This document shows positions 1,722 to 41,048 of a stretch of DNA of 43,018 nucleotides, one piece after another. Within the stretch, counting starts at the first letter, position 1. Every line of letters starts with the position of its first letter. Where the stretch lies: the IMG/VR virus record IMGVR_UViG_3300009034_000088, positions 1 through 43,018 of that record; one strand, written 5' to 3'. Source of the stretch: a virus. The notes under the pieces were generated by a model. It was not told the origin of the DNA and did no database searches. It saw only the letters and a program-made list of their open reading frames with translations. The translations under genes and the position numbers were made by a program.

Positions 1722-2216
1722 TTACAGATAACTCCTCAGTTTGTCCATGCTGAAGAACTTCCCCGGACAGAGGGTATCACCAAACTTGTTGTGTGGCTGG
1801 ACGGCAGATGCGTCAAGTTTGAATATCTCCAAAAGGGGAACTATCACCCTGCGTGCCATGATTTTCAATGCCTCCTCTGGGGGTGAAACCTCTTCATAGT
1901 TTCCTATCAGGCATATCCCTATGCTGTTATGATTCTGACCTAAGCAGTGAGCTCCCCGCAGATGCAGGGGCCTGCCGACTACCGCCTCCAGGGCATCATG
2001 GATTTCCTCAACAAGATAGTGATAGCCAACATCTGCCCATCCACGCTCAACCGTGTGTATCTCCCTGATTTTCTGAGCGTCAGACAGAGAGCTGTCCTCG
2101 CAGGCGGAATGGTGAATTATAATCCACCGCACCACCTTGATTTTTGGGATTTCTATCGTGTTATTCTCAGGCATTGTCCTGTTCAGAAATCTCTTTCTGA
2201 AGAACCAGTAGAGCAT
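1722..2216 (-). CDS. N-acetylmuramoyl-L-alanine amidase (endolysin, Amidase_2/PGRP fold)
   Basis: The enzyme should cleave the amide bond between muramic acid and the peptide stem of peptidoglycan, acting as the endolysin. Visible family marks: a beta strand ending in IIIHHSA (zinc ligand His35 or His36), GYHYLV with catalytic Tyr65, SIGICLIGNY, then QPHNKF (His142) and TLCPGK (Cys150) as the remaining zinc ligands. At 164 aa it is a single-domain, T7-lysozyme-sized amidase with no separate wall-binding domain. The ATG at 2216 overlaps the stop of the upstream gene; an alternative ATG at 2174 (MPENN) has a slightly better ribosome site. It ends the late operon, next to membrane genes typical of a lysis cassette. 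Confidence 0.92.
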   Translation of the reverse strand: MLYWFFRKRFLNRTMPENNTIEIPKIKVVRWIIIHHSACEDSSLSDAQKIREIHTVERGWADVGYHYLVEEIHDALEAVVGRPLHLRGAHCLGQNHNSIGICLIGNYEEVSPPEEALKIMARRVIVPLLEIFKLDASAVQPHNKFGDTLCPGKFFSMDKLRSYL

Positions 2217-36083: not shown

Positions 36084-36910
36084 AGTTCTCCCTTTGCTAT
36101 TTTTTCTTCTTGTTCTTTTATCCATGCTTTCGCACCTGAATATTTCCCTCCAGTTTTGTGTAGTAATCGTGGTATCTGAGATTTGAATATCTCTATTGTG
36201 TACCCGGCTTCTTTGACAAATTTACTATCTGTCTTGAAAAACATAGCCATCAGTTCCTTTAACTTATCAATGCTGTATACCTGTAAAAGATTTTTAAATA
36301 TAACACCATGCTTACCCCATACAGGACAATATTTCTCACCAGTAATAATTTCAAATCCTCGACAAAATAATAATATCAATTCCTTTATTCTTGGATCACC
36401 TTTTTTCTTACGATCTACATTAGTAGTTTCTTTTGTATTAGTTTCTTTAAAATACTTTCTTTTGTGTACCCCAATATTGGGGACACTTTTTTTAGATTTT
36501 GTACCCATTATTGGGGATAGGGTGTTACCATTTTTGGGGACTGTTACCTTTTTTGGGGATACCTTCCACTTTTCGTAATCCTTTTGGAATCCATAGCTTA
36601 CAAGAGAGGTGTTACCATTTTTGGGGATAGGCTTTTTTATGAGTATATTTTTTTCGACAAGAGTATTTATAAGTAAATTACATCTTGAGCGAGGTATACC
36701 AGTTAATTCTGAGAATTGGCTATATGATATTATATCCATTCTTTTCTTTTTTTTCTTATCCTTTTTAGGATTCTCTAACCAGCCCCAAGTTTTTCTCAAT
36801 ACTACCCATAATATTTGCCATTCCTGCCCAGATATTCTGTGTTTGCATAGTGCATCTACAATTTCATTGGCTATATCAATATGTCCATTTTCCCTTTGAG
36901 GATTTGCCAT
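36080..36910 (-). CDS. Phage replication initiator, lambda O-like (276 aa)
   Basis: 'MANPQRENGHIDIANEIVDA' with LCKHRISGQEWQILWVVLRK, then 'TWGW' is the Phage_rep_O winged-helix N-terminus that binds origin iterons. The middle (about 95-165) is low-complexity and carries the repeated PKNGNT; its DNA is the iteron array. The C-terminal half ('LFCRGFEIITGEKYCPVWGK', 'AWIKEQEEKIAKGEL') should bind the loader. The ATG at 36910 lacks a clear ribosome site and lies after a 210-nt leader with strong structure. Initiator of phage DNA replication. Confidence 0.85.
   Translation of the reverse strand: MANPQRENGHIDIANEIVDALCKHRISGQEWQILWVVLRKTWGWLENPKKDKKKKKRMDIISYSQFSELTGIPRSRCNLLINTLVEKNILIKKPIPKNGNTSLVSYGFQKDYEKWKVSPKKVTVPKNGNTLSPIMGTKSKKSVPNIGVHKRKYFKETNTKETTNVDRKKKGDPRIKELILLFCRGFEIITGEKYCPVWGKHGVIFKNLLQVYSIDKLKELMAMFFKTDSKFVKEAGYTIEIFKSQIPRLLHKTGGKYSGAKAWIKEQEEKIAKGEL
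36380..36627 (-). other. Probable replication origin inside the O-like gene (oriLambda type)
   Basis: Five iterons of the form GTWACCATTWTTGGGGA begin at 36466, 36501, 36524, 36543 and 36611. The first has the palindrome CCCCAATATTGGGG. In gene direction the array is followed by an A-rich tract (36465 to about 36380). Iterons inside an O gene followed by an A-rich segment is the arrangement of the lambda origin. Confidence 0.8.
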
Positions 36911-37120
36911 CTGCTGTATAATGAGGAATTATTGTCGGTTTCTTCCTCATATATAAAAGTACCCCTCCCCATGCCAATATCACCCGAGGCACCAGCCGTA
37001 CAGGTACGGAGGATCCGGGAGGACAAAGAGAGGGGTACCCTTAATTGTCTGTGTAAAAAAGCCTGTATCACTGGTGCCTTCTCCTTTCTACATCTACGGT
37101 TTAGGTTCTTCTACTGAACG
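36911..37120 (-). ncRNA. Structured 5' leader of the replication operon
   Basis: From the predicted start near 37120 the transcript can form GGCACCAG/CTGGTGCC (37078-37071 with 36995-36988) and GTACCCCTC/GAGGGGTAC (37038-37030 with 36967-36959). The pairings interleave, so they form a pseudoknot or exclude each other. A CCGTAC/GTACGG hairpin (37009-36996) lies between, and ATGAGGAA/TTCCTCAT (36950-36921) closes just before the start codon. A GTG at 37071 with AAGGAG could give a leader peptide. Confidence 0.6.
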
Positions 37121-38753: not shown

Positions 38754-39722
38754 TTAGTCAATTATCACGCCCGTTCCTTTGCAGTGCGTGCAGTCTTTCA
38801 ACGGTTTGTTTATCTCTGCCATGAGGTTTTTAAGATAGGTATCGATGTTTTTCTTCAAGTCCTCATGGTCTTTTCCTTCAAAGCCCTGAATCGGTGTATA
38901 TCCCTTATAGTTCTCTGGGCTATATGTCATCTCAAAAACTTTAACGGGGCGATCAAATCTATATCTTGTTGCATATTCCGCTTCACCTTCAGGGTCATAG
39001 TTTATATTAACTTTATACTCCTCTGGTTCAACCAATTTTATTTTCTTACAAACAGAAAAACAAAAATCGTAGTCGGAAGTTATTTTTGCTACTTTCGGGT
39101 CAATATTATCTTGGATGTGTTTGCGAATGATTCTATATGCCTGATAGGAAGAAAGTTTAGAAGGTCGAGAAGGTAGGACAATATTAGGGAAAAGTATCTT
39201 GTCCAAAAGTTGCGATTCAACATTTTTCTCCGTTATCTCTGTGGTACTATCTTTGTGTGTTTTCGAGGCAGGATATGAAAATCCGTTTACTTTTTTGACA
39301 TCTTCCAATTCAATCACATTCACAACCTCAAAAGCAATCTCTCTTTTTATATTAGGCTGTTCATCATATTTTTCTTCATACAGCGATCGATAATCGGCAT
39401 ATTCGCTTTTCCATGAACTATAACCTTTACTATCTGTAGAAAGTGCGTCTTTCCTTTTGATAACCAAAGGTATCTTGTCGCTTGCGAAAGATTTATCTTT
39501 CAGTTCATATCTGAAGTTAATATCGGGCTGGCTAATTTCTTCTTCGACCTTTGAAGGAATTTTCTTTACCACCACCCATGCTTCATGGAAAGACGGTTTT
39601 GCTTTCTTTCCGTCAAAGTAAAGTTCCAACAAATCCTTAGCATAACAAGACTTGTAATCCATATATCCTAAATAAATCTTATCCCTCGTCTTGATAATAC
39701 TAAACTTTTTAATCTTATCCAT
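38754..39722 (-). CDS. Large early protein of unknown function with C-terminal zinc knuckle (322 aa)
   Basis: The protein starts MDKIKKFSIIKTRDKIYLGY and is mixed alpha/beta, with 'IKREIAFEVVNVIELEDVKK' and 'SKLSSYQAYRIIRKHIQDNI' (a helical region that could be a winged helix), and 'YKGYTPIQGFEGKDHEDLKK'. It ends with CTHCKGTGVIID, a CxxCxGxG knuckle like that at the start of the next gene. I do not recognise the family. It is the largest early gene apart from tnpB. Confidence 0.6.
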   Translation of the reverse strand: MDKIKKFSIIKTRDKIYLGYMDYKSCYAKDLLELYFDGKKAKPSFHEAWVVVKKIPSKVEEEISQPDINFRYELKDKSFASDKIPLVIKRKDALSTDSKGYSSWKSEYADYRSLYEEKYDEQPNIKREIAFEVVNVIELEDVKKVNGFSYPASKTHKDSTTEITEKNVESQLLDKILFPNIVLPSRPSKLSSYQAYRIIRKHIQDNIDPKVAKITSDYDFCFSVCKKIKLVEPEEYKVNINYDPEGEAEYATRYRFDRPVKVFEMTYSPENYKGYTPIQGFEGKDHEDLKKNIDTYLKNLMAEINKPLKDCTHCKGTGVIID

Positions 39723-39894: not shown

Positions 39895-41048
39895 TTGGCA
39901 CTTTCCTATTTAAAAACAGGAGATTCTCAGGCTACACCTGACAACTCAGGTGTTGACGCCTGACGGGTCTGCCCGACCCTCAAAATATTTAGGGATGCGT
40001 TCAAATCCCTATCTATCTCTAATTCACAAAAAGGGCAATGATGAACTCTAACAGCCAATGTTTTAGGAACCTTCTCGCCACATTTAGAACAAATCTGACT
40101 GGTGTTTTGGGGTGGAACTTTAATCAGTTCTCTATCAGCCTCTACCGCTTTATATGACAAAAGATTAAAGAACATGCCCCAACTACTATCTGCTATGGAC
40201 TTACTCAAATGGCGATTTTTCACCATGCCCTTGATATTCAAATCCTCAACACAAATTGTCTTGAAATTCTTTATGTAGAAGTTTGCGACCTTATGAAGAA
40301 AATCATTCCTTTGATTGGTGATTTTCTCATGAGTTTTTGCAACCAGTATTCGAGACTTATTTCTTCTATTAGAACCTCTTTTTTTACGGGAAAGTCTTCG
40401 TTGTCTCCTGCGAAGAACTTTCTCGGATTGCCTAAAATACTTAGGATTTTCAACACTATTGCCTTCAGAGTCCACACAGAAAGACTTTATGCCGACATCT
40501 ATTCCCACTTCCTTTGTAGTATTGGGAAATGTTTTGCATGGAACATTATCACAGGAAAAAGAGACAAACCACTTATCAGTAGAAGTTTTTCTGATGGTGA
40601 TAGTCTTTATATTACCCTCAATAGGTCTCGACAGAAAAAGTTTTAATCTACCAACATTTCTAATATAGAGATTCCTGCCTTCCAATTTCCACCCACATTG
40701 TCTCAAAGTGAAGGAATCGTATCTATTTTTACTTTTGAATCTCGGATAACCCGGTTTATCACCACTTTTCACACGTCTAAAAAATCCCTGAAAAGCCTTG
40801 TCCACTCTTTCAACAACATCCTGAAGGACTTGCGAACCTACCTGTTTAAATTCAGGAAATTCTTTTTTAAGGTCAGGAAGTTGTTTTATTTGGTCATAAC
40901 ACGAAATTGATTCCTTATGCTGTCTATAAATATCTCTTCTATGTTCAAGACAGAGATTGTAGAGTTGTCGGCACAATTCAAGCCATTCAGTCGCATTTTT
41001 TTCTGTCTCTCTGTTAATTTTAGCTCTATATTTATAACATTTATACAT
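39895..41048 (-). mobile_element. IS605-family tnpB-only element (right end visible)
   Basis: The end after the tnpB stop reads GAGAATCTCCTGTTTTTAAA then TAGGAAAGTGCCAA (to about 39895), close to the conserved right end of IS1341-type elements, although its final hairpin has decayed. Just inside, ACACCTGA-GTTG-TCAGGTGT makes a perfect hairpin, the expected region of the omega RNA. The left end is not identified. No tnpA is present. Confidence 0.7.
39927..41048 (-). CDS. tnpB: TnpB, RNA-guided nuclease of the IS200/IS605 family (373 aa)
   Basis: The protein is full length. The N-terminal helical part ('EWLELCRQLYNLCLEHR') and 'KAFQGFFRRVKSGDKPGYPR' with 'RFKSKNRYDSF' are typical. The RuvC parts are intact: GIDVGIKSF (Asp184), ICVEDLNIKGM (Glu268), and IDRDLNASLNIL (Asp346/348). 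The zinc finger CSKCG...HCPFC (Cys320, 323, 338, 341) is complete. TnpB proteins cut DNA guided by an omega RNA made from the element's 3' end. Its start lies behind a phage-type promoter and a long stem leader. Confidence 0.95.
   Translation of the reverse strand: MYKCYKYRAKINRETEKNATEWLELCRQLYNLCLEHRRDIYRQHKESISCYDQIKQLPDLKKEFPEFKQVGSQVLQDVVERVDKAFQGFFRRVKSGDKPGYPRFKSKNRYDSFTLRQCGWKLEGRNLYIRNVGRLKLFLSRPIEGNIKTITIRKTSTDKWFVSFSCDNVPCKTFPNTTKEVGIDVGIKSFCVDSEGNSVENPKYFRQSEKVLRRRQRRLSRKKRGSNRRNKSRILVAKTHEKITNQRNDFLHKVANFYIKNFKTICVEDLNIKGMVKNRHLSKSIADSSWGMFFNLLSYKAVEADRELIKVPPQNTSQICSKCGEKVPKTLAVRVHHCPFCELEIDRDLNASLNILRVGQTRQASTPELSGVA

Follow-up and report, generated by a model that had tools for sequence, protein, structure and literature searches.

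Antibiotic-resistance and amino-acid genes can be controlled by leader-peptide attenuators, which carry a short 5′ ORF, and the position of the ribosome on it decides the fate of a downstream hairpin. In the repY/repZ system of ColIb-P9 (IncI-alpha), the initiator has no strong ribosome site of its own and is governed through a leader peptide and a pseudoknot. In satellite phage P4, pairing of the leader RNA involves a leader-gene start, and premature termination uses Rho. This pairing of the P4 leader RNA decides premature termination before the replication genes (PMC4825925). For ColIb-P9, control of the initiator by a leader pseudoknot is described in PMC10724649, which cites Asano and Mizobuchi 1998. 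In pT181 (repC) and pIP501 (repR), expression depends on a terminator-like hairpin immediately ahead of the initiator gene (PMC5703833).

Here we describe the leader of an O-like replication initiator gene (leader A) in a viral DNA of 43,018 nucleotides (IMG/VR record IMGVR_UViG_3300009034_000088), the whole of which is referred to as the window. With a probability of roughly 0.55, we read this leader as a translation-coupled transcription attenuator whose stems interleave.

Structure of leader A

The following features were identified in leader A and the adjacent gene.

37155-37127, minus strand: promoter A, TTGACA-17-TATAAT with a TG-extended -10, matching the sigma-70 consensus at 12/12 positions
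37079-37071, minus strand: 5′ arm of stem P1, AGGCACCAG, between the Shine-Dalgarno sequence and the GTG of the leader ORF
37071-36871, minus strand: leader ORF of 66 codons with a GTG start and a Shine-Dalgarno sequence, AAAGGAG, at 37087-37081
37038-37030, minus strand: 5′ arm of stem P2, GTACCCCTC, within the P1 loop
37009-36996, minus strand: hairpin P3, CCGTA-CCTG-TACGG, 5 bp, flanked by the 5′ arm of P2 and the 3′ arm of P1
36995-36987, minus strand: 3′ arm of P1, CTGGTGCCT, within the P2 loop
36967-36959, minus strand: 3′ arm of P2, GAGGGGTAC
36958-36951, minus strand: U-run UUUUAUAU, directly 3′ of P2, terminator-like but weak
36950-36943 and 36928-36921, minus strand: fourth hairpin, ATGAGGAA/TTCCTCAT, 8 bp, just upstream of O
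36910-36080, minus strand: O-like replication initiator gene (Phage_rep_O; Pfam PF04492, E value of 7.5e-16; PHROG 277)

All genes around leader A lie on the minus strand. A promoter scan of the window gave promoter A the top score and detected no other 12/12 promoter, in agreement with a preliminary description that had placed the strongest promoter above the leader. Judging from the position of this promoter, the transcript probably begins near 37120, and the leader spans ~37120 down to 36911 on the minus strand.

P1 has 9 bp and continues past a 3 × 3 loop into UACAGG/CCUGUA (37067-37062/37004-36999), resulting in 18-nt arms with a complementarity of 83%, while the 9 bp of P2 extend to 14-nt arms that are 86% complementary. 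The loop of P2 is long (62 nt), and the joint between P1 and P2 is 32 nt. The two stems interleave in the order 1-2-1′-2′ around P3, as had been proposed. The accompanying claim of four perfect inverted repeats held for three of at least 8 bp, but the third hairpin has merely 5 bp; the leader ORF with its start in P1 and the UUUUAUAU tract after P2 were absent from that description. The 3′ end of the fourth hairpin and the O ATG (36910) are 10 nt apart.

Dinucleotide shuffles were used to examine whether such repeats are expected in 210 nt, and low probabilities were obtained both for three or more perfect repeats with arms of 8 bp or longer (P = 0.001) and for any interleaved pair (P = 0.007). 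When interleaving was scored by stacking energy, leader A was matched by 0 of 1,500 shuffles. Nested folding detected a gap of only 1.5 kcal/mol between a P1 state (-54.2 kcal/mol) and a P2 state (-55.7 kcal/mol), and both stems together could be held by a pseudoknot. P1 had a predicted formation probability of 0.96 at a point where P2 was not yet complete, and in most of the leaders with this motif (see below) P1 was likewise predicted to form ahead of P2 completion.

The GTG of the leader ORF is located 9 nt past AAAGGAG, and the frame covers both P2 arms and terminates 40 nt inside O. Its composition was not coding-like, as expected if RNA structure sets the sequence. No Pfam or PHROG family match was detected for the three minus frames of the leader or the overlapping plus-strand ORF. 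A real gene in place of a leader was considered and rejected; one minus frame scores as coding-like, yet it has stops and is without a convincing homologue. A slippery heptamer, U UUU UUA (37060-37054, minus strand), is located in frame within the leader ORF, on the 5′ side of P2. Programmed frameshifting at this site was considered, but the -1 frame stops after ~30 codons, and a shift would yield a product of about 30 residues. A 24-codon frame, MRKKPTIIPHYTADGKSSKGKWTY (36950-36876, minus strand), has its ATG within the fourth hairpin and reads across the start of O.

The start codon of O has no Shine-Dalgarno sequence, which bears out the earlier statement that a ribosome site is missing and would be explained by translational coupling from the leader ORF. 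Within the O gene, TGTTACCATTTTTGGGGA-type repeats (36460-36640) resemble initiator-binding iterons and suggest that a replication origin is likely located there.

Recurrence upstream of O genes in relatives

A scan of the loci of relatives for strong promoters detected the first cases of the same stem order in unrelated letters. A descriptor was defined for the 260 nt preceding O: interleaved stems of at least 6 bp, scored by their summed energies, with a T-rich tract on the 3′ side of P2. With this descriptor, which was fixed after the first examples had been seen, the motif was detected at -26 kcal/mol in 21 of 112 relatives, compared to 0.85 expected from dinucleotide shuffles and to 2 of 332 control regions taken from the same loci as the relatives' leaders. 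At -30 kcal/mol, 15 of the 112 relatives had the motif (0.17 expected; controls, 0/332). The clean repeat is therefore the second sample only, which consisted of 48 previously unseen regions from two further viral scans and was analyzed with identical code. Here the motif was present in 11 of 48 regions at -26 kcal/mol (0.51 expected; controls, 1/92) and in 6 of the 48 at -30 kcal/mol (0.09 expected; controls, 0/92). The count of 21 was obtained with a minimum loop of 25 nt and increases to 22 with one of 20 nt.

The motif was missing from about four-fifths of the relatives. Most cases came from regions in which O is not closely preceded by the end of another gene (14 of 31 regions versus 8 of 81 others). 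In phages CBP1, Jimmer2 and Mimir87, O is located inside an operon, directly behind another gene. The T-tract criterion alone exhibited moderate strand specificity, with 22 cases in the sense strand and 14 in the reverse complement. Clear U-runs were observed in many relatives, and textbook terminators were present at P2 in, for example, L147, L152, L119 and L080. In L141, L161 and L152, an extra hairpin with a U-run, starting CGACGAGRAA, is located between the 5′ arms of P1 and P2 and represents an initial terminator, which falls within the leader ORF or at its end.

The covariation check suggested in the preliminary description could be answered in part. Pairing remained perfect despite full turnover of both arms, but the leaders were unalignable and were not close homologues; even for L126 and L131, whose O proteins are 60% identical, there was no shared sequence in the leaders. 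The broader claim of that description, that a pseudoknot or two-state RNA in the leader governs the O-like initiator, was supported by the over-representation upstream of O and by the gap of 1.5 kcal/mol in leader A.

Association of the stems with promoters, start codons and ORF ends

The positions of the stems relative to other signals were examined in the motif leaders. An ATG at the P1 5′ arm (-14 to +4) was present in 15 of 22 leaders, compared to 5.4 expected (P = 6e-6). In 15 of 22 cases the frame from the nearest ATG had no stop before the P2 5′ arm, versus 16 of 44 for the other frames (P = 0.014), and a stop of the leader ORF within 12 nt of the O start was observed in 9 of 22 versus 1 of 44 other frames (P = 1e-4). 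The ORF of leader A overlaps the P2 5′ arm; those of L141, L161, L162 and L163 stop 20 to 25 nt short of it. After P2, 4.3 of 8 positions were T, compared to a background of 2.1 and to 3.0 at the mirror position.

A sense promoter of at least 10/12 was detected in 18 of 32 motif leaders and in 10 of 117 others (P = 3e-8). Antisense promoters of at least 10/12 had no significant association with the motif (2 of 32 versus 1 of 117 other leaders; P = 0.12), and the antisense site in leader A is weak (9/12). An antisense-controlled initiator leader of the pT181, pIP501 or ColIb-P9 type was rejected on the basis of this lack of a significant counter-transcript promoter association. Overall, the computations supported the stems and their polarity, their recurrence with unrelated sequences, the overlap with the leader start, the ending of ORFs at O, the promoter association and the T-rich tracts.

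These data also bear on whether the repeats are palindromes acting at the DNA level, as protein sites or origin parts, or are due to chance. Such an explanation would fit the shortness of the arms and the O-type iterons a few hundred base pairs downstream, inside the O gene. It is quite improbable given that the layout recurs in both samples well above shuffles and control regions, the ties to the sense promoter, the leader start and the ORF end, and arms that are unlike the iterons.

Two further leaders in the window

The next-best promoters in the window after promoter A were each followed by the stem order of leader A.

41190-41054, minus strand: leader B, with an 11/12 promoter (41190-41162), before tnpB (ATG at 41048)
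1375-1244, minus strand: leader C, with an 11/12 promoter (1375-1347), before a small gene (GTG at 1225)

Leader B has a P1 of 13 bp (41155-41143/41080-41068) beginning near the inferred transcript start, a P2 of 7 bp (41117-41111/41060-41054) whose 3′ arm overlaps the tnpB Shine-Dalgarno sequence, and a P3 at 41101-41082; these stems were reached by 0 of 1,500 shuffles. Leader C has a P1 of 6 bp (1340 to 1259) and a P2 of 6 bp (1295 to 1244) with a hairpin between them (shuffle P = 0.006). A stacking-energy ranking of interleaved sites in 1,073 scanning windows of the minus strand placed leader B first, leader A second and leader C among the first few distinct sites. The arms are not shared among the three leaders. 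These results indicated that the interleaved layout is not specific to O, as it is present after promoters B and C too. No clear U-run was observed in leaders B and C, and hence these two leaders may act on translation only.

No similarity was detected between leader A and the tnpB region within the window, and a relation to the TnpB element was dropped. The TnpB (IS605 OrfB) gene (39927-41048) encodes a protein that is ~46% identical to Deinococcus relatives and has the three conserved acidic motifs in readable form, and no TnpA was seen near it. A Gad1 (Gabija anti-defence) gene (38754-39722; Pfam E value of 5.6e-79) is located between tnpB and an MT-A70 methyltransferase gene. Promoter C (1347-1375) lies just after the endolysin gene (1722-2216, minus strand) and, if the map is circular, would open an early region running across the contig end toward O.

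A purely translational pseudoknot switch would have P1 and P2 gate ribosome access to the leader ORF and, via coupling, to O, with no termination. The weakness of the U-run in leader A, its absence from leaders B and C, the position of the leader B P2 3′ arm over a Shine-Dalgarno sequence and the near-equal energies of the P1 and P2 states are consistent with such a switch, as is the pseudoknot-controlled initiator of plasmid ColIb-P9 (Asano and Mizobuchi 1998, cited in PMC10724649). The enrichment of T after P2 in relatives and the textbook P2 terminators in several of them (L147, L152, L119 and L080) argue against it, and we regard such a switch as unlikely, although it merits serious weight.

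Searches for known RNA families and homologues

Rfam searches at gathering and permissive thresholds detected no match for the leader, in keeping with the initial observation that it could not be assigned to a known riboswitch or ribozyme class. No relevant homologues of the leader sequence were found in phages, plasmids, viral contigs or bacterial genomes. Relatives of the O protein are numerous, and none had a leader resembling leader A in sequence; no conserved sequence core was present between leaders. Leader peptides read by eye had no shared regulatory codons or stall motif.

HDV-like ribozymes have a nested double pseudoknot, a 7-bp P1 at the cleavage site, a short P1-P2 joint and a catalytic core. 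The order P1-P2-P3-P3′-P1′-P2′ fits this fold and raised the question of whether the leader is a self-cleaving ribozyme or a ligand-binding riboswitch. Either identity is very improbable in view of the empty Rfam results and the lack of a conserved core between leaders. An HDV-like ribozyme was dropped because the order of stems agrees but the core does not: the joint of 32 nt in leader A contrasts with the short joint required, and in leader B the location of P1 near the inferred transcript start leaves little to cleave off. A known riboswitch class was rejected since no aptamer core matching an Rfam family was found.

RNA control as in P4 was also considered, in which a terminated leader RNA would work in trans, at the leader starts of further copies, and serve immunity or timing. 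P4 replication genes are kept off by premature termination via leader pairing (PMC4825925), and the strong promoter, an RNA that could end before O and a layout compatible with pairing over the start of a leader gene, with putative termination, would suit this control. It is nevertheless improbable. The P1 3′ arm already has a pairing partner in cis, the window's three leaders are without common arms, there was no Rfam C4 match, and no integrase or repressor was present among the proteins tested, which leaves lysogeny unsupported.

Discussion

The combination of a leader ORF and a U-run points to translation-coupled attenuation. We infer from the layout how the stems would form in the cell, where transcription would terminate, the direction of control and the coupling to O. 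In the proposed attenuator, the leader ORF could accept a ribosome for as long as its start remains free. Approximately 80 nt later, the P1 3′ arm would emerge, pair with the leader start and shut out new ribosomes; as P1 is predicted to form before P2 completes, loading would have to occur before P1 closes. P2 would be a terminator-like hairpin with a long loop, which P1 pairs with the start of the leader ORF. A ribosome sitting on the P2 5′ arm would prevent P2 from forming, so that transcription continues into O, and a leader ORF ending at or just inside O would pass its ribosomes to an O start that has no Shine-Dalgarno sequence. With no ribosome loaded, P1 and P2 would form a pseudoknot and transcription would halt before O. 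Expression of the initiator would thus be linked to the ease of ribosome loading.

More tentatively, at somewhat less than even odds, these leaders may belong to a widespread class of phage attenuators that is defined by layout instead of sequence, with the leader-ORF start pairing into a terminator loop, and that gates commitment to replication by ribosome availability. In such a class, each transcript would have one brief chance of ribosome capture. If real, this switch would be common among phages of many environments and would guard the step into DNA replication, so that replication could wait for a translation-capable host. A regulator that keeps its layout alone escapes RNA family searches, which require sequence similarity; a promoter, a start codon in stem 1 and an interleaved stem 2 with a U-run provide a simple descriptor for finding more such leaders.

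Among known systems, the P4 immunity leader (seqA, seqC, CI RNA and gene eta) has in common with leader A a pairing in the leader ahead of replication genes and, if the termination proposed here occurs, a premature end of transcription. It differs in that P4 has a processed RNA able to act in trans, whereas the pairing here is within the transcript, and in its use of Rho, whereas here P2 is a stem of intrinsic-terminator type. The repY/repZ leader of ColIb-P9 and its relatives share a weak or absent ribosome site for the initiator, a leader ORF and a pseudoknot layout. In that system the pseudoknot has an activating role and regulation is by an antisense RNA, whereas no significant antisense promoter association was detected here, and the stems here are longer. 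With pT181 and pIP501, the likeness is a terminator-like hairpin in an initiator leader; those leaders rely on an antisense RNA and on alternative arms that overlap, whereas the stems here are interleaved and share no bases. P4, ColIb-P9, pT181 and pIP501 each use a trans-acting or antisense RNA, for which there was no support here. Leader-peptide attenuators differ in that shared regulatory codons or a stall motif are lacking here and an interleaved stem closes the leader start itself. A layout of two interleaved stems that share no bases, in which one stem shuts the leader start and the other is terminator-like, was absent from Rfam and from the literature searched, in which subscription journals were thinly covered, so that an earlier description may exist. 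On the sequence evidence, the leader would be a translation-coupled attenuator of unusual topology.
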